This document shows positions 10,061-43,524 of a stretch of DNA of 64,000 nucleotides, piece by piece. The notes under the pieces are model-generated. The model ran no database searches. It was not told the origin of the DNA and was given only the letters and a program-made list of their open reading frames with translations. Source of the DNA: Limnanthes douglasii subsp. nivea (taxonomy: Eukaryota > Streptophyta > Magnoliopsida > Brassicales > Limnanthaceae); assembly GCA_036936605.1 (NCBI GenBank), contig JAUPFV010000001.1, positions 320,938,250-321,002,249 on the forward strand, written 5' to 3'. The stretch's first letter is position 1. Each line of letters begins with the position of its first letter. Made by a program: the position numbers and the translations under genes.

Positions 10061-10077
10061 CCCACTATGGTCGCCAA
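10061..10077 (-). other. Primer-binding site of the first Tat element
   Basis: On the minus strand the 5' LTR ends in ACACCA, followed by AA and then TTGGCGACCATAGTGGG. The position is right for a tRNA primer site. I do not assign the tRNA. Confidence 0.55.
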
Positions 10078-10079
10078 TT

Positions 10080-10422
10080 TGGTGTGGATTATTTTCAACT
10101 GAGGGTAATTTGGTCAGGTGTTTTGTGGTGTTTCAAAGGTATTTAATGTTTAAGTGGTTTGTAATGAGAGATTTGAGCTTACTTGATGTATTAAATTTTC
10201 ATTACCCTCATTAATGAAAGTGGTTGGGTATTCATACCCCTAATTATGGGCCACATGGACTTTCGGGTCAAACTTATGAAAACGGGTCGAGTTCAAAAAC
10301 TCATTAGTTTGTTAAGCAGATTAGCAATTAGCTTAGTCAAAAGGTGATTAGCTATTAATACTTTAGTCCAGTTCGGATGGTTCAGTGGGTGGTTTATGTC
10401 TGAATTGCCCCTGTCCGGTTTC
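10080..10422 (-). repeat. 5' LTR of the first Tat element, outer end missing
   Basis: It starts TGGTGTGGATTATTTTC and follows 181-523 base by base with about 19 differences. Similarity stops after CCGGTTTCT, about 25 bp before the expected terminal TCATCA, so the outer end was deleted or replaced. Confidence 0.85.
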
Positions 10423-14163: not shown

Positions 14164-14307
14164 GCTTCCCATCCTAATCTTATTTTGTTTTCATCTGTTT
14201 TATTTAGTACGTATTAACTTGATTCCACTTGTTCTGTATCTTTCTCGCGTCATTATCCCAAACTTTTTGAGTTGATACGCTTTAAGCGTCATCTATTTTC
14301 ATCTGAT

Positions 14308-14829
14308 ACGCTAGATGAGTTGAACTTTCCTAAATCACTCTAGATGTTCTTGTAATATGACGCTAGATGAGTTGAACTTGCGTAACTCACGCGAGATGTT
14401 CGTGTAATATGAGGCTAGATGAGTTGAACTTGCCCAACTCACGCGAGATGCTCGTCTAATATGAAGCTACATAAGTTGAACTTGTCCAAAGCACACGAGA
14501 TTTATGTGTGCTACGACGCTAGATGAGTTGAACTTGCCAACAATACGCGAGATGTAAGTGTAATATGACACTAGGTGAGTTGAACTTGTCCAAAGCACAC
14601 TAGATTTACCTGTACTACGACGCTAGATGAGTTGAACTTGCCAACAACACGCGAGATGTACGTGTAATATGACGCTAGATGAGTTGCACTTGCTTAACTC
14701 GCGCGAGATGTTTGTGTACTATGATGCTAGCTGATTTGCACTTGCCAACATCACGGTAGATGTTCGTGTAATATGGAGCTAGTTGAGTTTTACTTTCCTA
14801 AATTACGCGAGATGTTCGTGAACTACGAC
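14308..14829 (+). repeat. 52-bp tandem array A, 10 units
   Basis: Ten units with strict 52-bp spacing (14308, 14360, 14412, 14464, 14516, 14568 and so on). A typical unit has ACGCTAGATGAGTTGAACTT in its first half and CACGCGAGATGTTCGTG in its second, so ACGC(T/G)AGATG occurs twice per unit. Units differ from one another in a fixed order that is repeated in array B. The array starts 145 bp after the transposase stop. Confidence 0.95.
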
Positions 14830-15453
14830 GCGCAATCCGTTGCTATAGAACTAGGCATCCCTCTGATCATGGATTGTGTGATTAACATTAGTGTGTCGAT
14901 GTCACGCGTGAGTTATTAAGGAGATATAGCGCGTGACAAGTAAACTTCCTATTCATCTCTACTATATTCTGTCTATTAATTACCTACTGTCACATAGACT
15001 ATAAAAATATTGCAGCCAAACCATCGAATCGCGTTCATTGCTCGTAACTCGAGTCTAATGGAAGTGTATCATAACACGCGATGTTAAATAACTATAGCGC
15101 GCGATATGGTGCTACCATTCTAACAACCCATCCCAGAGATCATATTTGTGATTAAAATTAGTTTCTTCATTCCTTTGTGCGAGTCGTTAAGGATATACAA
15201 TGCGTGACAAGTTAATTTACTATGCATCTCTACTGTATTATGTCTTTCAATTAGAGGCTGTCACATACACTATCAAACTATCGCAAGCAGACCATCAAAT
15301 CCATTTATGATTTTAACATTGCAAAAGGAAGGAAGACGAACTTAATACATATCAATAACAAAGGGCCTACGCATGCCCAAATACTAAACCCTAATAAAAA
15401 AACAACAAAATGTTATAGGGTTTAACAATTAAAATTTCAAAAAACTACTACAC
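14830..15453. other. Spacer with scattered CGCG motifs, no gene
   Basis: Non-coding. It contains GTCACGCGTGAG, AACACGCGATGTT, AGCGCGCGATAT and similar motifs, and an imperfect duplication of about 310 bp (the part around 14875 resembles the part around 15150). Confidence 0.5.
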
Positions 15454-15897
15454 TTAATAATCTGAAGAGTTACCCTTCTCTTCAGTGTCCTCGTCATCCT
15501 CAGACTCCTCTTCACACTCTTCCTCCTCCTCCTCCTCTTCATTCTCCTCTTGTTCCTCGTCGTCGATTTCCTCGCCCCAGTAAGAATCGTCTGATGAATC
15601 CTTGGAAAACTTCCTAGGAGTTATCTTCCTCCTTATCGTCTTCGTCTTCTTCTTCTTCTTTGTTATCCTTCGTTGTTTAGGATTCCAGTCGTAGTCAGAA
15701 TCCTCGTTCGGCCACGACATAGAGTATTCTCAGTCATATTCATGCTCTGGTGAAAGTGAGGAAGAGAAAGCATCTGACTCTCTGTCGGAAGAGTACTCTG
15801 TGGTAGTCTCACGCTTGTAGTCGGAGAACCTCGAACTCACGTCGGAAAACGCACCGTCAGAAGCTTTGTTGTTGTAGGAGTCGTCTGAACCGCTCAT
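15454..15897 (-). pseudogene. Small acidic Ser/Asp/Glu-rich protein of MULE
   Basis: The ATG at 15897 begins MSGSDDSYNNKASDGAFSD. The frame runs 148 codons with one stop (TGA at 15730-15732) after about 55 codons, then continues with MSWPNEDSDYDW, a basic stretch with KKKKKTKTIRRK, and a long Glu/Asp run ending NSSDY. Serine and aspartate-rich at the start, basic in the middle, acidic at the end: probably disordered, perhaps chromatin- or DNA-associated. I do not recognise a family. Its conserved frame across the single stop and its codon composition speak for a real former gene of the element. It could also be a distant exon of the Myb/SANT-like fragment at 17395-17777. Confidence 0.55.
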
Positions 15898-16336
15898 GGT
15901 GGTGTTTTGCTTTTCTAAGGACTACCCTAGTGAGCAATTAATGCACATATAATGAGTAGTTTAGGTACCCAAGTCACATCGTGCATTGATAAACCCAATG
16001 CAATTAGTGAAAAGACAACCCATTGTCTTTTCACTAGCCAGTAATTATGACGCGATTTAATTTTGATTCACGATAACCAACGCGTACTACTACGACATCT
16101 CTCGTCTTATTAATTAATTATAATTAAATTTTTTGTTTAGTTTATTATTAGTAAATGCTTGATTAATTAAATTATATATAGTTAAGTACATTATAAACAA
16201 CTGAATAATGTACCTTGGTTAACTGAATAATGTAGCTTGGTCCAGTTTATTAGTTAAATTATATATAGATAAATGTGTCCATTACCCCGCTAGTTGCGTT
16301 CTATAAGTTGTAAACCCACAAGTAACCCCCAAGTAA
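15898..16336. other. Spacer, no gene
   Basis: AT-rich. TTAATTAATTA-type runs and a duplicated phrase AACTGAATAATGTA with TTGGT (16200-16240). No coding frame. Confidence 0.45.
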
Positions 16337-16675
16337 TTTCACGCGAGATGTTCAATTCATGTGACGCTAGATTTATTAACCTTTCTCCTATCACGCGAGA
16401 GTTTCATGTCCTATAACGCTAGAATGATGAAACTGGACACTAACGCGCGTGATGAGGTTAAACCATAACGCGAGTTGAACTAAACTGGATACAATAACTG
16501 GAGACGTGGATTTAGTATAACGATACATGATATAAACTGGACCCTATCACGCGCGATGTTTAGTTCATGTCACGCTAGATGTATTAAGTTTTCTCCTATA
16601 ACGCGAGCTATTGATGATGGATAACGCTAGTTGTGTTAAACTGGACCATATCAAGCGAGATGTTCATGAAATACA
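16337..16675 (+). repeat. Divergent lead-in of tandem array B
   Basis: Irregular repeats of the same motif family (TCACGCGAGATGTTCA, ATGACGCTAGAT, TAACGCGAGTTG) without a fixed period. They merge into the regular 52-bp units at 16676. Confidence 0.7.
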
Positions 16676-17195
16676 ACGTTAGATGAGTTGAACTTGCCTA
16701 AATCACGCTAGATGTTCTTGTAATATGACGCTAGATGAGTTGAACTTGCATAACTCACGCGAGATGTTCGTGTAATATGACGCTAGATGCGTTGAAGTTG
16801 CCCAATTCACGTGAGAAGCTCGTGTAATATGACGCTAGATGAGTTGAACTTGTCCAAAGCACGCGATATTTAGGTGTATTACGACGCTAGATGAGTTGAA
16901 CTTGCCAAAAGCACGCGAGATGTAAGTGTAATATGACGCTAGATGAGTTGAACTTGTCCAAAGCACGCTAGATTTACGTGTACTACGACGCTAGATGAGT
17001 TGTACTTGCCAACTTAACGCGAGATGTAAGTGTAATATGACGCTAGATGAGTTGCACTTGCCTAAATCACGCAAGATATTCGTGTACTATGATGCTAGAT
17101 TAGTTGCACTTGCCAACAACACGCGAGATGTGCGTGTAATATGACCCTAGTTGAGTTGGACTTGCCTAATTCACGCGAGATGTTCTTGTACGATG
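16676..17195 (+). repeat. 52-bp tandem array B, 10 units
   Basis: Regular units at 16676, 16728 and each 52 bp on, ending at 17195. Unit n of array B is closest to unit n of array A: for example units 4 and 6 in both arrays have TGTCCAAAGCAC and end in TACG, where most units end in ATATG. The two blocks therefore derive from one 10-unit block copied as a whole. Confidence 0.95.
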
Positions 17196-17394
17196 ACGCG
17201 CGAGACTGGCATTGTTCGTAATCTCGAGTTAAAATCTGGGCAATCATTAGGTAACCATTTCAAGAAAATTACACTAAAAATAAATTCATACATTTTTATC
17301 ATTACTAAATGTATTCCAGTACATCCAATTTAAAGAATAATTTCTTTTTTGAATGAAGTTACATTTTTAAAGTCATTAAAATTAAAGCCTTAAT

Positions 17395-35097: not shown

Positions 35098-35188
35098 TAA
35101 TTTAACCATTTCTTTTTATCACGCTATATCTTTATTGTAATATCAATCATTTAAACCCTCTCTAAAATAGAGTGAAACCAAGAGGACA

Positions 35189-38100
35189 ATGGTGAATCTT
35201 GTAGCAGCACTAAAGCCATTACTAAAAGCCTTAATGAAAATGGCAGGAGTCATACCACACCAAGTCGAAATCGAACCAGGAACCAAGATGCAATTCTGGG
35301 TTCCAAAAGAAACAATAAATAAAAAGTCCAAAAATAGCGAAACAATTATACAGAAACCAAACAAACCAGTAGTTGTGTTGGTACATGGTTTTGCAGCCGA
35401 AGGAATAGTGACATGGCCGTTTCAAGCTGGTCCATTGTCCAAAACATATTCAGTTTATGTCCCTGATTTACTTTTCTTTGGTAGATCCATCTCCGACAGA
35501 CCGGGCAGGTCACCGGAGTTTCAGGCTGAATGCTTGGTTAAGGGTTTAAAGTTAATTGGTGTCGATAAGTTTTGCATAGTCGGGTTTAGCTATGGAGGTA
35601 CGCACATAATATTTCTATATCATTGCAGCCCTTGTTATATATTATCCGAAATCGCATCAAATAATATATAACAAATCGCGGAAAAAATAATAAAACCCTT
35701 TGCTAGATTCATCTATAGAAGAAACAGAAAATCAAGAATACTTACGGGTTTGCCTGCTGCTATCCATCTAGTATTCTCTAGCGTTCTTTAGCGATTCCAC
35801 GTTCTCCGGTGATTCCGTTTATGAAACTAAGAGACCTGCAGAATCAGATTAGATAAGAGGGAAATGTTTCCAGACACTAAGGAAGCGGCCGTATTTCTGA
35901 TTAGGGTTTAGAGTGATGAAATACCTAAACCTAGCCCCTTATTTATAGATTTTACAATGTGAAGCCCAACATTGTAAAGCCCATCCTATGTTACTTCCTT
36001 GTGTCCGGGACCATAACCCAATAAATTGATAATTCAATTTATATCCCTGATTTATTAATTCAGGCTTAAGTGTTGAGATTTGGGCCCTCTTCATCACAGT
36101 GCCCAAATTCAACCCGGTTACCACACTTGAGCCCATAACGCCTTTTTACCCATAGGTCCAATTTAGTTAATTAAATAATTAACTCGACTACTTTTAATTT
36201 GGACTTCCTTAAGACAATAACCGAATATGTTTATTTAGCATATCGGTCCAAATTATTATTAGTCTATAAATATATTAAATAAATATATTCCAACAATCTC
36301 CCACTTGGACCGTCATATGCTACTCAAGAATACATATTCAACTTTAATGGGATCCCTATATTCATTGTCAATGGGCAAACGGTACAACCCCGTACATGAT
36401 TGATAATAATAAAGGACTAAAGACCTCTTTCTCGTAATGTGAACAATAGGATGCAACAGTAATCACATTACCATAATCAATCAATTACTTGGGCCAATTA
36501 TGGAGGGTGGTCTAAGAGTAATATGGCTTGTAATCGTACATATCTACTCTTAAATGGTTCCTACTTTTGGAGATCCAATACAGTACAGATATCAATAAAT
36601 ATTTCCAAGCATATACATTGCAATAAACTTTAATGTGCACAATACTGCAAAATACAACATCAGATCATATTACAAACTCTCCCACTGAAACTAAAATCCT
36701 CTAAATCAACTACACCCATACTGATGGTGTGTCCCTGGAAAACCTTAGGCAAAACCGCCTTTGTTAGAGGATCTGCTATCATGGAGTTTGTTCTGATGTG
36801 CTCTATACTTATCTGACCCATCTGTACTCTTTCTTTAACAGACAGAAACTTTATGTTTATGTGTTTGGATTTAGATGCGCTCCTGTTGATGTTAGAGTAC
36901 TGCACTGCGGAATTGTTATCGCAATATAACCTCATAGGGATTTCTATCCCTTATACAATGCGTAATCCAGTAACAAAATTCTGCAGCCATAGTGCCTGGT
37001 TTGATGCCTTAAAGCATGCAACAAATTCTGCTGCCATGGTGGACGATGCAATAAGTGTTTGCTTTACACTTTTCCAGGATATTGCACCTCCAGCCAATAA
37101 GAATATGTTGTCTGACATACTTTTAATGTGTCTGCGCATCCACCAAAATCTGAGTCGGAATACCCGATGATCTCCAGTTTATCCGACTTCCTATATGTCA
37201 ACATGTGCCCCTTTGTTCCTTGCAGATATCGGAGTACTCTTTTAACTGCTTTCCAGTAATCCATTCCTGGGTTACTAACATATCTCCCCAACATGTTTAC
37301 AGCAAAGACAATGTCCGGCCTAGTACAAACTTGAGCATACATTAAACTCCCAACTGCAGAAGCATAAGGGACCGTTTTCATTTCCTCAATCTCAAGTTTT
37401 GTCTTAGGACATTGACTCGGACTAAGTCTGTCACCCTTTGCTATAGGGGTACTTAGAGGTTTGCAATCTGCCAATCCGTAACGTTGTAACACACTTTTAA
37501 TGTATGCTTTTTGTGATAATCCAAGAATACCACGAGAACGATCTCGATGTATCTGGATTCCTAACACAAAAATGGCATCACCAAGATCCTTCATATCAAA
37601 CTTGTCTGATAGAAATCTTTTGTAGTGTGTAACAATTCCTTATTGTTCGAGGCAAGCTATATGTCATCCACATATAATATAAGAAATATGAAATTACTCC
37701 CACTGAAATTGTGATAAACACAATCCTCAACCGAGTTGATCTCAAAGTCATAACCGACTATCACCTCAAGGAATTTGTGATACCATTGACGAGAAGCTTG
37801 TTTAAGCCCATAAATGGATTTCTTAAGTCTGCAAACCAGATCTTTTGAGTTACTTTCTACAAAGTTTTCTGGTTGCATCATGTAGATCGTTTCCTCAATA
37901 TTACCATTGAGAAAAGCGGTCTTAACATCCATATAATGAAGCTCAAGGTCAAAATGTGCAACTAATGCCATGATTGTTCTAAAGGAATCCTTCGTCGATA
38001 CTGGAGCGAAACTTTCTTTAAAATCAATCCCTTCACGCTGAGTATAACCTTTCGCTACAAGACGTGCTTTATGTCTTTCCACATTACCCAGGGAATCGCG

Positions 38101-41100
38101 TTTGGTTTTGTAAACCCATTTACAACCAATTGCCTTTTTTCCTTCAGGTAATGGGACAAGATCCCATACCGCATTATCCTGCATTGATTTATACTCTTCT
38201 TTCATAGCGTCAATCCACTTTTGAGATTCAGAGCTTGCCATGGCCTGTTTGTAGGATGAGGGATCATCTACAGTTCCAACACATAACTCATCATGCTCCT
38301 GAAGATATACTATAAATTCTGGACCTATAGTACTCTTCATTTCTCTAGTGGACCTTCTTAATGGCACTATTTCCTCCTGTTGCACTTCTTGAGGAGGTAG
38401 AGTTTGATCATTATGAACGATGTCATTTTGATTCCCTTGTGGAAGATTATCTTGAGGTTCCTCTTGTTCTACCTGAATCTCTGTATCCTGGTTAGAACCC
38501 TCAAGTGGAGCATCAGTGTTAATCTGAGGATTACCTTGTTCTAATGGGATCGAAATGATTGGCATTACCGCCCAATCTTCAGATATCTCAGTATCCCTAT
38601 TAAAACCTTCATGAATCTTTATGGATTCTTCCTCAAAATCAACATATGTGCCCTTATTCTTCCCCCCAAACTCAACATCCTCTAGAAACTTGGTCGTTCC
38701 TGTCTCAAATATTGTACCAGTGAGAGAATCATAAAACTTAAACCCTCTAGAATGTTCGGAATAACCTATGAAGAAACAACTAACTGTTTTTGGGTCCAGT
38801 TTCTTTTCTTGAGGTTTGTAAGGCCTCGCCTCAGCTGGACAACCCCACACATGCAGATGCTTTAAATTAGGTTTACGCCCGTTCCAAAGCTCATATGGAG
38901 TCCTAACAGTAGCCTTTGTGGGTACTCGATTGAGTATATAAGCGGCACATTTGATGGCTTCCCCCAGAGAGATAATGGTAGAGATGAGTGACTTATCATG
39001 CTTCTAACCATATCTTTTAGTGTTCGGTTCCGTCTCTCAGATACACCGTTCATGCGAGGTGAACCAGGCATAGTGTATTGATGGACTATTCCACACTTCT
39101 CTAGGTACTGTGCAAAGGAACCTGGACGTTGTTAACCCGATCCGTCATATCTACCATAGTATTCACCACCACGGTCAGATCTAACGGTCTTAATGCTTTT
39201 ACCAAGTTGTTTCTCAACCTCGGTCTTAAAAGTTATGAACTTGTCCAGGGCCTTATACCTTTCTTGTTGACCGAACCTTGACCTGGTCCTTTGCCATATG
39301 CCTTCCGCTTAGGTCCTGCCTTATTTGGTGATGTAATCACATTAGCCTCAAGCGCTGTGCCTTTAAGTCTTTCCTCCTCCTGTGCAGCGTGGGAAATCAA
39401 TTCATTGATATTCCACTTTTCTCGCATGCAGTTATAGGTGGACTGGAAATACTTAAACCGGTCTGGCAGCGAATGAAATGTGAATCCCACTATGCATTCC
39501 TCAGGTAAGTCTAAACCGATTGCCTTTAACTTTTGGCAAATCATCAACATTCCCAGAATGTGCTCCCGGATTTTATCTTTGCCATTATACTTTTTTTTTG
39601 TAGCTAGCTCGATGAGCAAACGCTGCATCTCTACCTATTCATTTTCATTTTTATTTTTATTTTTATTTTTTTTGGCAAAGGCTTTCTCAATCTTCGTGAG
39701 AAAGACCGAGGCAGTGGTAACACCTTTAGGGACAGCCCCACGCAATGCTACTGCTATTCCCTGTAACAAGAGCGCCATGCATAACTTATTTGACCTTTCC
39801 CACTTTTCATCAGCCTTAGTTTCATCCGGTGTACTTTCCGGACTAAGGGGAGATGGTTTGGGAGTTATCAGTGCATAGTCGTAATCATGTACAGATAAAA
39901 ACAGCAACACTTCTTCCTTCCACAATTGGAAGTCCGAACAATCCAACGTCGGTGGACGATTCCCCAAAAAATTGTAACCCATGGATACTATAATAGGAAC
40001 AAACAACACAAAGCACATCTAGCATTTTGACATATAACTGAAAACATGTGCATAAACATGACAAATACATGTAAAACATAAAATTCATTGATAATAGATA
40101 CCGGAGGGCAAATCAAATTAACATGAAATTTTATGAGTTTGAGAAAATTACTATGATCATTATTTTAATTTTCTAATTGCCAATGAGACCTTCCGGAGGG
40201 CCGATGTCATTTATATATATTAAAATAACCATAATTTGATTTTCTTAAGTACCGGTGAAACCTTCCGGAGGGCCGATTTCACCTACTTAAAATCAAAAAA
40301 TTGTAAGGCTGAATTTAATTTATCCTAAGTACCGATGAAACCTTCCGGAGGGCCGATTTCATCTAATTAAAATTAAAATCAGCACAAAGACCATTTTCAA
40401 TAATTTTCTCCCGTTCATAATTAATTTAAACCCAAACGTGAACCTTCCGGAGGGCCGATAATATTTGAATTTAAATTAATCCCCGAACCTTTCGAAGCCT
40501 AGGATCCTTAAGAAAATTAATTTTAACCTTCCGGAGGGCCGATTAAATTAATTTCTTAATTTCACCTACCGGTCTACGAAACTTTAGTCATGCATCGTCA
40601 TTTAATCATTCACACACATACAATTTAATTCACAAATACACATACAAAAAAAATATCAAAGTATCATTTTTGTGAAATATATTGTTCAAATATTTTCAAA
40701 TTAATAATTTTTTTTTATTTTTTTTTAAAAAAAAAAATAATTTTTATTATTTAACTTAATATTTGCAGCAGCCTGCACGTGCAGCAGGCTGCTGCAAATA
40801 TTAAGCCCTGCTGCAATTTGCAGCAGGCGCAGCAGTCTACCGCTGCTGCAAATTGCAGCAGCTTACCTGCCTGCTGCAATTTGCAGTAGGCTGCAGGTCC
40901 TAAACGGGCCCACCAATTGTTTTGGGTGGGTCCAGCCTGTATTCATATGCTGTTATTATCGTTTGGGTATTTTTTTTTTGTTGTCCCTATTCTTTTGGGG
41001 CTACTGTGTTTATCGCCGGACAGCCTTCGGTCAGCGTTAACATCAGGGGTTAAGCTGTCGATGAGCCACTGTCCCAATAATTTTGATTTTATTCGTTATT

Positions 41101-43524
41101 TAGGGTTGATTTGATGCTAATTTTGGGATAAAAATTCCAGACATCAATAAACCCTAATTTTACCCGAAATAAAAAAAATCCCCAAACTATAAAAATTGCA
41201 ATTTCCTGATAATAAAACATGTGTTTCAATATAATAAATCACATAACATGCTTTTCATACAATCCCTAAATCCATGCCCTACCAATTCAATTAACACATA
41301 ATCCCAATGACATGGATTCTTTACGATTAAGAAAAATATGCATCTTTGTCTATCAATACTCAATTTGATTATTCCACTGAATCCAAAAAGGGTTTATTTG
41401 GCTCTGATACCAATTGTTATATATTATCCGAAATCGCATCAAATAATATATAACAAATCGCGGAAAAAATAATAAAACCCTTTGCTAGATTCATCTATAA
41501 AAGAAACAGAAAATCAAGAATACTTACGGGTTTGCCTGCTGCTATCCATCTAGTATTCTCTAGCGTTCTTTAGCGATTCCACGTTCTCCGGTGATTCCGT
41601 TTATGAAACTAAGAGACCTGCAGAATCAGATTAGATAAGAGGGAAAAGTTTCCAGACACTAAGGAAGCGGCCGTATTTCTGATTAGGGTTTAGAGTGATG
41701 AAATACCTAAACCTAGCCCATTATTTATAGATTTTACAATGTGAAGCCCAACATTGTAAAGCCCATCCTATGTTACTTCCTTGTGTCCGGGACCATAACC
41801 CAATAAATTGATAATTCAATTTATATCCCTGATTTATTAATTCAGGCTTAAGTGTTGAGATTTGGGCCCTCTTCATCACAGTGCCCAAATTCAACCCGGT
41901 TACCACACTTGAGCCCATAACGCCTTTTTACCCATAGGTCCAATTTAGTTAATTAAATAATTAACTCGACTACTTTTAATTTGGACTTCCTTAAGACAAT
42001 AACCGAATATGTTTATTTAGCATATCGGTCCAAATTATTATTAGTCTATAAATATATTAAATAAATATATTCCAACAGCCCTTACTAATTGTATAATTCG
42101 ATAATTTATTGTCGCAATCATGCAATAATCTTGTAGGTATGGTGGCATTTAAAGTGGCTGAATTGTACCCTGAGGCTGTTCGGGCCATGGTCGTGTCTGG
42201 CTCGAGTATAACGCTGACTGACTCGACCAACGAGATTAACTTGAGCGAGATGGGGTTCAATTCTTTGTCCGAGATGTTGTTGCCTAATACAGTCAAAGAA
42301 CTTAAGGCACTTTTGGCGGTTGGTGTTTACAAGAAATTTTGGTTTCCTAGTAGACTTTATAAGGACTTTATGGAGGTTATTTTTTTAACCCTAACTTGAT
42401 GTTTAGTTTTCGCAGTTAAAAGGATAAATATAATTTTATATATATATATATATCAATTGTCACATTTTTATATTTTATATTTATCTTCGTTACAATTGTC
42501 TTACCTATTTCAATAATTTTGTATTTTAATCTTCATATTTATCTAATATAACCAAATTGATCTTTATATTTTTCTAATCTCGTCAAAATTATGTTTCAAT
42601 AAAATTACAGTTTAAATTATGTTTTTTCTATCTATCAAATAATTGTTTATGTTTCAATAAAATTTAGATGTATGTTTTGTTTAAAAATAAACCGAAAATT
42701 AAAATGCAGCATTGTTTAACAAACATGAAACCCAGTTTTAAAGTAAACATACAATATGGTTTCTCTGAGTTGGTATACATTGTCGATTATATTTGTTTTT
42801 CAAGCCAGTTTTTCCTCAAATAATGTTTCTATATCATTCCAGGTTTGCGGGTCGGGAAATTTTATATATTTGAGTTAATCAAAATAGAAATGAACATGAT
42901 TTCAGAAATTAAATATAAAAATATTAATAACATATAAATATAAACATATTTCAAATTAATAAAAGTTTCTTTTACAAGAGTATAAAAACAAAAATATCAA
43001 AATAAATTGAATATAGTTTTCATTTTGACAAGTTTGGTTGTTGCAGGTAATGATCACCTACAGGAAAGAAAGAGGTGAACTCTTGGATGCATTGGTAGTT
43101 AAGAAGAAGGACAAAGTCATTACACCCAAATTTCCACAAGTAAATAAGTTTCTATTTATCTTAAATTGAAATGGATATCATAAAACATGAAAACCTAAAA
43201 TTAGCTTTAACCCTTTAGTTCTTTTGTAATGCAGAAAATACATCTCTTGTGGGGTGAGAATGATCGAATTTTCAAACTCGACTTCGCTCAAAACATGAAG
43301 GAGTAAGTAGATTTAGTTAACTCGAACTAAATAAAATTCTTTTTTGTTTAGATTTTTAAAGAACCAAACAAGGCATAAAAATAATGGGTTTGGCTAATGT
43401 TAATGGCAGGCAATTAGGAGAGGAAGTGACGTTAGAAAGCATAAAGGGAGCAGGTCATTTAGTTCATCTAGAGAGACCTCGCGTCTACACAAGATGTCTT
43501 AAAAAGTTTCTTGCTTCTATTTAA
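35189..43524 (+). CDS. Alpha/beta-hydrolase superfamily protein, 307 aa, five exons
   Basis: The only intact protein gene seen. Exons 35189-35597, 42137-42375, 43047-43139, 43235-43302 and 43410-43524 join to 924 nt, exactly 308 codons with the stop. All introns are GT-AG. The product is a cytosolic-type plant alpha/beta-hydrolase of the sort annotated as lipase- or esterase-like. The oxyanion-side motif is VLVHGFAAEG (residues 64-72), the nucleophile Ser134 is in VGFSYGG, the acid Asp257 in LLWGENDRIF, and His286 in GAGHLVHLERP. The Ser box is split by intron 1, which now carries a 6.4-kb copia element. No signal peptide is seen; the N-terminus (VAALKPLLKALMKMAG) is a short amphipathic helix. 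The substrate cannot be told from sequence. Confidence 0.9.
35628..35632. repeat. Left 5-bp target duplication of copia element
   Basis: GCCCT directly before the LTR start TGTTATAT; repeated at 42078-42082. Confidence 0.9.
35633..36295 (-). repeat. 3' LTR of copia element
   Basis: 663 bp, same length as the other LTR. By eye the differences are G/A near 35714, T/A near 35866 and C/A near 35937. Confidence 0.95.
36296..36308 (-). other. Polypurine tract of copia element
   Basis: On minus, AAGTGGGAGAT adjoins the 3' LTR start TGTTGG. Typical copia tract. Confidence 0.75.
36660..37600 (-). pseudogene. Copia RT end and RNase H, frameshifted
   Basis: After the catalytic box, MKDLGDAIFVLGIQIHRDRS begins the RT C-terminal part. 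VPYASAVGSLMYAQVCTRPD and VKRVLRYLQGTKG follow. RNase H begins at GYSDSDFGGCAD, loses frame near 37140, continues in SWKSVKQTLIASSTMAAEFV and, after another break, in MRLYCDNNSAVQYSNI and HIRTNSMIADPLTKAV, the usual end of copia pol. At least three frame breaks. Confidence 0.9.
37620..39265 (-). pseudogene. Copia integrase C-terminal half and RT
   Basis: From about 39262 on minus: LGKSIKTVRSDRGGEYYG (second catalytic Asp of integrase), a stop near 39133, MNGVSERRNRTLKDMVRS (catalytic Glu), a frameshift near 38860, a linker (EARPYKPQEKKLDPKTVSC) and a low-complexity hinge rich in Gln, Asn and Glu. RT follows: WVYKTKRDSLGNVERHKARL, MDVKTAFLNGNIEETIYM (first catalytic Asp), KKSIYGLKQASRQWYHKF and the box LYVDDI, after which one codon has become TAG (37657). 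The integrase zinc finger and first catalytic Asp are absent: the copy is fused directly to gag. Confidence 0.9.
39233..39982 (-). pseudogene. Copia gag, truncated and joined to integrase
   Basis: The ATG at 39982 (MGYNFLGNRPPTLDCSDF) is preferred to the open frame further upstream because copia gag proteins begin with a short leader before the substrate-like W (FQLWKEEV). The gag domain continues with IPLLLQGIAVAL-like helices (read here as CMALLLQGIAVAL) and FLTKIEKAFAKK, then a simple Lys-Asn run from a TTTTTA microsatellite and one TAG stop (about 39638). MQRLLIELATKKKYNGKD, HILGMLMICQKLKAIG and ECIVGFTFHSLPDRFKYF follow. The usual zinc knuckle never comes: after GPGQGSVNK the sequence passes into integrase with a one-base frame change. 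Confidence 0.85.
40160..40565 (-). repeat. Five hairpins with identical apex in copia leader
   Basis: CCTTCCGGAGGGCCGAT occurs five times (from about 40189, 40261, 40341, 40443 and 40527 in plus orientation), once per 70-100 bp. Each copy sits at the centre of an imperfect inverted repeat whose arms are different in each case: for example GGTGAAA with TTTCACC, GATGAAA with TTTCATC, AATTAATTT with AAATTAATT. The apex contains the self-complementary hexamer TCCGGA. Position: between primer-binding site and gag on the element's own strand. Confidence 0.85.
40755..40895 (-). repeat. GCAGCAG palindrome cluster in copia leader
   Basis: A perfect inverted repeat with 22-nt arms and 7-nt loop spans 40755-40805 (arms begin CTTAATATTTGC and end in CAAATATTAAG). 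It is followed by three further near-palindromes of the type CTGCTGCAAATTGCAGCAG up to about 40895. An A/T run palindrome precedes it at 40700-40755. Confidence 0.9.
41400..41412 (-). other. Primer-binding site (initiator Met tRNA) of copia element
   Basis: On minus, TGGTATCAGAGCC follows the 5' LTR end after AT. This is the standard complement of the 3' end of plant initiator methionine tRNA. Confidence 0.9.
41415..42077 (-). repeat. 5' LTR of copia element
   Basis: 663 bp, TGTTATAT to TTCCAACA in plus orientation. On minus it contains a TATA box (next entry) upstream of the leader. Confidence 0.95.
41721..41729 (-). promoter_or_regulatory. TATA box of copia 5' LTR
   Basis: TATAAATAA on the minus strand in the downstream half of the LTR, the place expected for the element's promoter. 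The same box is kept in the other LTR near 35941. Confidence 0.6.
42078..42082. repeat. Right 5-bp target duplication of copia element
   Basis: GCCCT, matching 35628-35632. Confidence 0.9.
42376..43046 (+). other. Intron 2 of hydrolase gene
   Basis: 671 bp, GT-AG, phase 0, AT-rich with a (TA)n run at about 42437-42452. No insertion recognisable. Confidence 0.8.

Follow-up and report, generated by a model that had tools for sequence, protein, structure and literature searches.

Results

A hairpin array in the leader of a young copia element

The window analyzed here, a stretch of 64,000 nucleotides from Limnanthes douglasii subsp. nivea (GCA_036936605.1, contig JAUPFV010000001.1, forward-strand positions 320,938,250 to 321,002,249), holds on its minus strand a copia retrotransposon (42077 to 35633) whose leader, between the primer-binding site (PBS) and gag, carries an array of predicted hairpins with a constant tip and changing arms. 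The element is bounded by two long terminal repeats (LTRs) of ~663 bases, the 5′ LTR at 41415..42077 and the 3′ LTR at 35633..36295, with limits set at TG...CA by help of a 5-bp target-site duplication, GCCCT, found at 35628..35632 on one side and at 42078..42082 on the other. It is young, because the LTRs differ at 3 of 664 aligned bases (5′ LTR against 35632-36295) and GCCCT stands on both flanks. The PBS, TGGTATCAGAGC, which we take to match the initiator tRNA, was read at 41401..41412. Gag, the putative second exon (39233..39987), has an in-frame stop at 39635-39637 in the window copy, and pol is present in broken pieces (37064..39131: integrase core, SH3-like and RVT_2). The domains nevertheless stand in copia order, and a copia-type gag with RVT_2, integrase ahead of reverse transcriptase (RT), and LTRs with a target-site duplication place the element in Ty1/copia. 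Profile matches to PF14223 and PF07727 scored above the cut-off, whereas the integrase match, rve_3, fell under its curated cut-off. No CCHC or protease domain was recognized among the eight pieces scanned, and a gag protein search returned nothing at E 0.001.

Five exact copies of a 17-nt apex occur at 40189, 40261, 40341, 40443 and 40527 (shuffle expectation 0.04). The base that follows in the sense (minus) strand, T, is constant as well, giving an 18-nt apex, ATCGGCCCTCCGGAAGGT in sense, with five unchanged copies between PBS and gag; no further site of the 17-nt string with up to three mismatches exists in the window, and hence none in the LTRs. All five apices are tips of predicted minus-strand hairpins: A (40508..40559, apex 40526-40543, with an outer stem extending to 40490-40581), B (40413..40488, apex 40442-40459), C (40308..40383, apex 40340-40357), D (40231..40301, apex 40260-40277) and the weakly folding E (40156..40232, apex 40188-40205). 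They share an inner structure in which A-U, U-G and C-G pairs are followed by an internal loop (GG/AA) and then by two C-G pairs that close a CUCC loop. A sixth minus-strand unit, F (40077..40135), has a decayed core, GCCCTCCGG, at 40101-40109 and its own pairing arms. C, D and E are tandem relatives sharing two bulges, and the arms of A and B are unlike those of C-E.

The 531-nt array folded in sense at -138.6 kcal/mol (z -4.06, 0/100 shuffles as good) and less distinctly in antisense (z -2.32, 3/100). When the arms were shuffled with the apex kept, the six-unit sum gave z -6.19 in sense and -3.09 in antisense, an excess carried mostly by B, C and D, as evidenced by the number of 500 shuffles that were as good for each unit (A 22, B 2, C 3, D 0, E 73, F 29). 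Swapping arms among the five units left their own pairing as the best of 120 permutations, by minimum free energy and by duplex energy. In a strand-neutral alignment of the arms, six mismatches are G-U in sense and none is G-U in antisense; this excess of G-U over A-C (6 to 0) is carried by unit B, which supplies four of the six. The original prediction, made from the letters of the window, had described an apex held constant across five successive inverted repeats, arms whose sequence changes from unit to unit although left and right pair within every one, and a structure expected to fold better than shuffled sequence, and all of this was borne out for the array; its count of five stands for the exact apices and overlooked unit F.

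A second cluster of minus-strand hairpins, near-perfect GC-rich palindromes of GCTGCTGCAAATTGCAGCAG type, lies within the same putative intron as the array (40755..40890). It is very stable on both strands, far more so than the array, and in a scan of sliding 100-nt windows its z-scores were far stronger than the modest ones over the array. In 31 of 66 loci, some of them young, blastn did not find it.

The sequence TCCGGA lies in the tip of the five leader hairpins and is self-complementary, as is the loop of a retroviral-type dimerization signal. The self-duplex of this hexamer, at approximately -8.7 kcal/mol, ranks 11th of 64 self-complementary hexamers. In the predicted fold its GG is paired with the preceding CC, and therefore kissing must first open two pairs, at a cost of ~3.7 kcal/mol. 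Kissing as the sole explanation of the array was not preferred, given that the fold pairs two of the six TCCGGA bases.

The array across the copia family

The 1.78-Gb genome of the same plant contains 2274 exact copies of the 15-nt apex core (1199 + 1075) and none of the core string reversed without complementing. Searching with 406 nt of the array yielded 2126 candidates, and each of the 40 that were scored stood at 99-100%. A further 40 stretches were taken, 39 around sites among the first 100 cores listed (all on C1) and one from an array-query place. Comparison of 55 copies, window copy excluded, distinguished 38 that span a long form, 15 that match only the first 287 bases of that form and two partial ones. 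Three of the 15 short copies were read, and in these one unit, with a C-like outer left arm and E-like inner and right arms, replaces C, D and E; hairpin number therefore varies between subfamilies, five or three. Some local groups of copies share an altered unit or spacing (G000:C1:302851768-302939111 and G000:C441:128085493-129557642), some of them on C1 lying ~14 kb apart, a pattern that suggests segmental duplication.

These copies had been retrieved by the tip itself, and a second set was therefore chosen by the gag side of a diverged copy. This query gave 1911 candidates, 40 of which were scored (one being the query), and of the remaining 39, 20 were read on the upstream side of gag. Nineteen of these 20 have two or more tip sites at up to four mismatches (shuffle expectation 0.0075 sites per stretch), with the array in the same place; one of the stretches, L187, stems from a partial match and ends inside the array. 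Elsewhere, 47 viral stretches with the 15-nt core had one match each, and the viral contigs held no copia RT relative and no double apex; one double-apex match occurred in a planctomycete contig.

Compensation and constraint in the arms

The sequences entering the covariation counts are related, so that no count given here is a clean probability. Among the five units, four inner-stem pairs are changed on both sides, and the covariation score of 0.233, versus 0.110 in shuffles, was reached by 4/500 shuffles, with all six slid versions lower; other measures were unremarkable ('pairs with change on both sides' 66/500, 'further pair types' 264/500). Changes on the left and right sides of C, D and E fall at one and the same pair more often than expected by chance (P 0.016, 0.007, 0.004), and pairing is kept at four positions (5, 6, 15 and 17). 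A family-wide set of 47 distinct arms from 167 C/D/E/X-type units gave a covariation score of 0.1525, which one or more of 500 shuffles surpassed (their maximum being 0.1593). Its paired cells (0.837) and double-change cells (25) lay above all 500 shuffles, whose maxima were 0.826 and 24, respectively. One difference between subfamilies, in unit C/X, is a double change, seen as G-C in 34 copies, A-U in 12 and G-U in three.

Variants common to at least three of the 55 copies, counted at non-CpG positions, fell at 25 of 264 stem, 8 of 70 apex and 32 of 144 unpaired positions (stem versus unpaired, p 0.0006). The same comparison for shared versus rare variants gave p 0.010, and the stem-versus-unpaired difference held without homopolymer surroundings (p 0.002). 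It was not significant at G/C positions alone (p 0.23), and the apex-versus-unpaired comparison gave p 0.06-0.08.

A putative intron that holds the primer-binding site

The stretch described as a leader looks, from its splice-site motifs and reading frame, like a 1540-nt intron running from a donor in U5 of the 5′ LTR to just before gag. On the minus strand, a putative first exon has its coding part at 41528..41549 (ATG to ACCC, MDSSRQT) and is followed by a putative donor, CCC|GTAAGT (GTAAGT at 41522..41527); the putative acceptor, TTGTTCCTATTATAG (39988..40002), reads TATAG| and ends at 39988, five bases ahead of the supposed gag ATG. Joining donor to acceptor keeps the frame (MDSSRQT-LSMGYNFLG), which places the LTR start codon in frame with gag. 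That AUG, at 41549 in U5, is the only one between 30 nt past the TATA box (41730) and the donor; another ATG, which overlaps the TATA region, lies ahead of where transcription would be expected to begin. Read without splicing, the frame from this AUG meets a stop after 11 codons, and 34 AUGs lie between PBS and gag. The putative intron is T-richer and GC-poorer than its flanks; plant introns are described as T-rich and GC-poor (excerpted text of PMC3735527).

Twenty stretches were fetched for a donor test, of which 13 aligned and two others came from copies already counted via another stretch. Across 27 aligned copies at separate places, window copy included, the donor reads GTAAGT in 26 and GTAAGC in one, with GT kept in 27/27. 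The ATG of exon 1 occurs in all 26 ungapped copies and also in L167, the copy with an indel. Seven of the ten distinct changes in exon 1, in 25 ungapped copies with the window's excluded, fall at third codon positions (p 0.015). At the acceptor, 59 of 64 separate places retain AG (AA 3, GG 2), whereas the supposed gag ATG is present in only 37 of 64 copies, 12 having CACTG there.

Other features of the window

Two plus-strand open frames that flank the element (35171-35671 and 42097-42399) resemble, as judged by eye, one hydrolase-like gene, and the element may sit inside such a gene in reverse orientation. Elsewhere, the window contains two blocks of a 52-bp tandem repeat with ~1.8 kb between them (14204-17287) and a direct repeat pair, 178-477 and 10077-10376, whose members lie 9.9 kb apart, are 95% alike over 300 nt and are possibly the LTRs of another element.

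Discussion

The best single reading of these features, to which we assign a probability of roughly 45%, is that the array serves as a packaging or dimerization signal restricted to genomic RNA. Transcription would start in the 5′ LTR, and splicing from U5 to just before gag would remove the PBS, the array and the 34 upstream AUGs, fusing the LTR start codon to gag and yielding a translated mRNA unable to prime reverse transcription. If the intron is real, the PBS and the hairpins inside it would be carried only by unspliced RNA, and RNA escaping splicing would retain them while giving no Gag from the LTR start codon. The same-tip hairpins may then offer several equal docking points for Gag, for a second RNA via the TCCGGA tips, or for both, such that only genomic RNA would be paired and packaged. 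The steps that we infer in this scheme are splicing itself, Gag binding, dimerization and packaging.

We favor the array as a mark of the genome because it folds better in the sense strand, because each left arm is specific to its own right arm, because the five units covary and because changes in C, D and E are co-located. Stems carry fewer shared variants, and the array recurs in nearly all gag-selected copies. The donor, the acceptor and the frame are conserved while the second ATG is not. Moreover, the window copy, coding-defective yet young, was presumably mobilized in trans by proteins of other copies, and from this we infer that working cis signals would have been required. The original prediction had placed the hairpins in a leader between PBS and gag, where retroviruses keep dimerization and packaging signals; the position was confirmed and recurs across the family, whereas the plain leader gives way to what looks like an intron, with the start codon for gag in a first exon. 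Its suggestion that TCCGGA loops could kiss keeps the self-complementary hexamer and must now accommodate two paired bases. It had also named related copies lacking the apex, or arm changes without compensation, as findings that would speak against selection for structure, and a part of each was observed.

Several of our own results weigh against a packaging or dimerization signal. Of 20 positions compared in C, D and E, 5 fail to pair in one unit or more, which amounts to uncompensated arm changes; covariation in the inner helix of these three units alone lies within shuffles (score 56/500, paired cells 50/500); and several other differences common among copies break pairs. Hairpin E folds within chance (73/500 arm shuffles as good), the tip hexamer is half-paired within the predicted fold, and one of the 20 gag-selected copies, L184, has no units A-E and only the core of F. 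On the splicing side, 5 of the 20 stretches fetched for the donor test gave no donor alignment (site unreached or diverged), and by the rough splice-site weights that we used, CAG|GTAAGC at 40866 and other sites outrank the U5 donor. Other splice forms are therefore possible; the 40866 site was found in three of six loci where PBS and array were both placeable. The array lies upstream of the putative acceptor by ~70-590 nt, adjoining it in the copies read, and this location likewise suits the main rival, namely that the hairpins slow or tune intron removal and thereby set how much genomic RNA there is relative to gag mRNA, with Gag binding unneeded. Conserved donor and acceptor sites and GC-rich tips within a T-rich intron agree with such splicing control, which may coexist with a packaging role. 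Taken alone it leaves an identical tip with varying arms unexplained and sits poorly with a unit number that differs, five to three, among subfamilies, and we consider it unlikely.

The tandem relationship of C, D and E, and the single unit that short copies have in their place, could also mean that the array is a by-product of tandem duplication, in which one hairpin was copied several times and the copies either inherited their pairing or regained it when templates switched at palindromes; any function today would be slight or absent. The pair-breaking shared changes and the copy without units A-E point the same way. This account does not anticipate a tip identical in five units though the arms of A and B are unlike those of C-E, nor the scarcity of shared variants at paired positions or the better fold of the sense strand, and it appears distinctly unlikely. 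Less probable again is a role at the DNA level, in which a transcription factor of the host would bind the CGG-N4-CCG tip, a proposal made for Sirevirus repeats, and the hairpins would be incidental: CGG-CCG palindromic repeats are known in Sirevirus LTRs and linkers (excerpted text of PMC2829016), yet here the arms pair, sense RNA folds better than antisense, and the window offers no tip-like site in the LTRs or elsewhere outside the array at up to three mismatches. In maize, small RNAs correlate with hairpin-like structures within genes and transposons (excerpted text of PMC10760457), and the array might on that precedent be a source or target of small RNAs in host silencing, without benefit to the element. 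A cost to the element fails to explain a tip kept at 2274 exact places, and an Rfam search of 39900-42100 gave 26 matches up to E 1, none reaching gathering score and none within 40060-40590; we regard this explanation as very improbable.

A packaging or dimerization signal of the kind that we favor has partial counterparts in known systems. In several retroviruses the packaging signal, psi, lies downstream of a splice donor, and in human T-lymphotropic virus (HTLV) and foamy viruses the splice donor is in R. Like the dimerization initiation site and psi, the copia array lies close to PBS and gag, is built of hairpins in the leader whose six-base tip is self-complementary and, if the putative intron is real, would be present on unspliced RNA; it differs in having five to six units with one tip. 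Retroviral Gag is made from unspliced RNA, whereas the copia LTR start codon would make gag depend on splicing. Among copia elements, splicing has been described for Drosophila copia and for BARE, the latter called in 2013 the only demonstrated Copia case besides copia itself (excerpted text of PMC3735527), and for Arabidopsis elements such as EVD (excerpted text of PMC8892269). As in BARE and EVD, translated and genomic copia RNAs would be separated partly by splicing, but the BARE intron is 104 nt within gag (PMC3735527) and EVD splicing yields a short gag RNA (PMC8892269), as these excerpts have it, while the putative intron here is the leader holding the PBS; none of the cases in the excerpts is an intron of that kind. 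The array resembles Sirevirus repeats in that a short CGG-CCG palindrome recurs many times outside coding DNA, and differs from them in that those are sited in the LTR and the pol-LTR linker, with no paired arms described in the excerpted text of PMC2829016. A literature search, with subscription literature mostly outside it, gave no account of such an array, nor of a PBS lying within a leader intron of a copia element, and the tip searched as text returned one bovine paper only.

The array and intron would add to leader signals and splicing strategies of kinds already known, in a function that is putative. The fuller proposal, that in this copia lineage a leader intron sorts one transcript and a multivalent array packs the unspliced genome by tip-to-tip contacts, in a number that varies by subfamily, is possible though somewhat doubtful. 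The family nonetheless presents a compact hypothesis checkable on RNA, an intron carrying a PBS and a repeated hairpin element, and it comes with natural variants of five units, three units and, in one copy, none besides F. If the hypothesis is true, splicing would separate translation from replication, and these natural variants would bear on what counts as a packaging or dimerization signal in a plant element.
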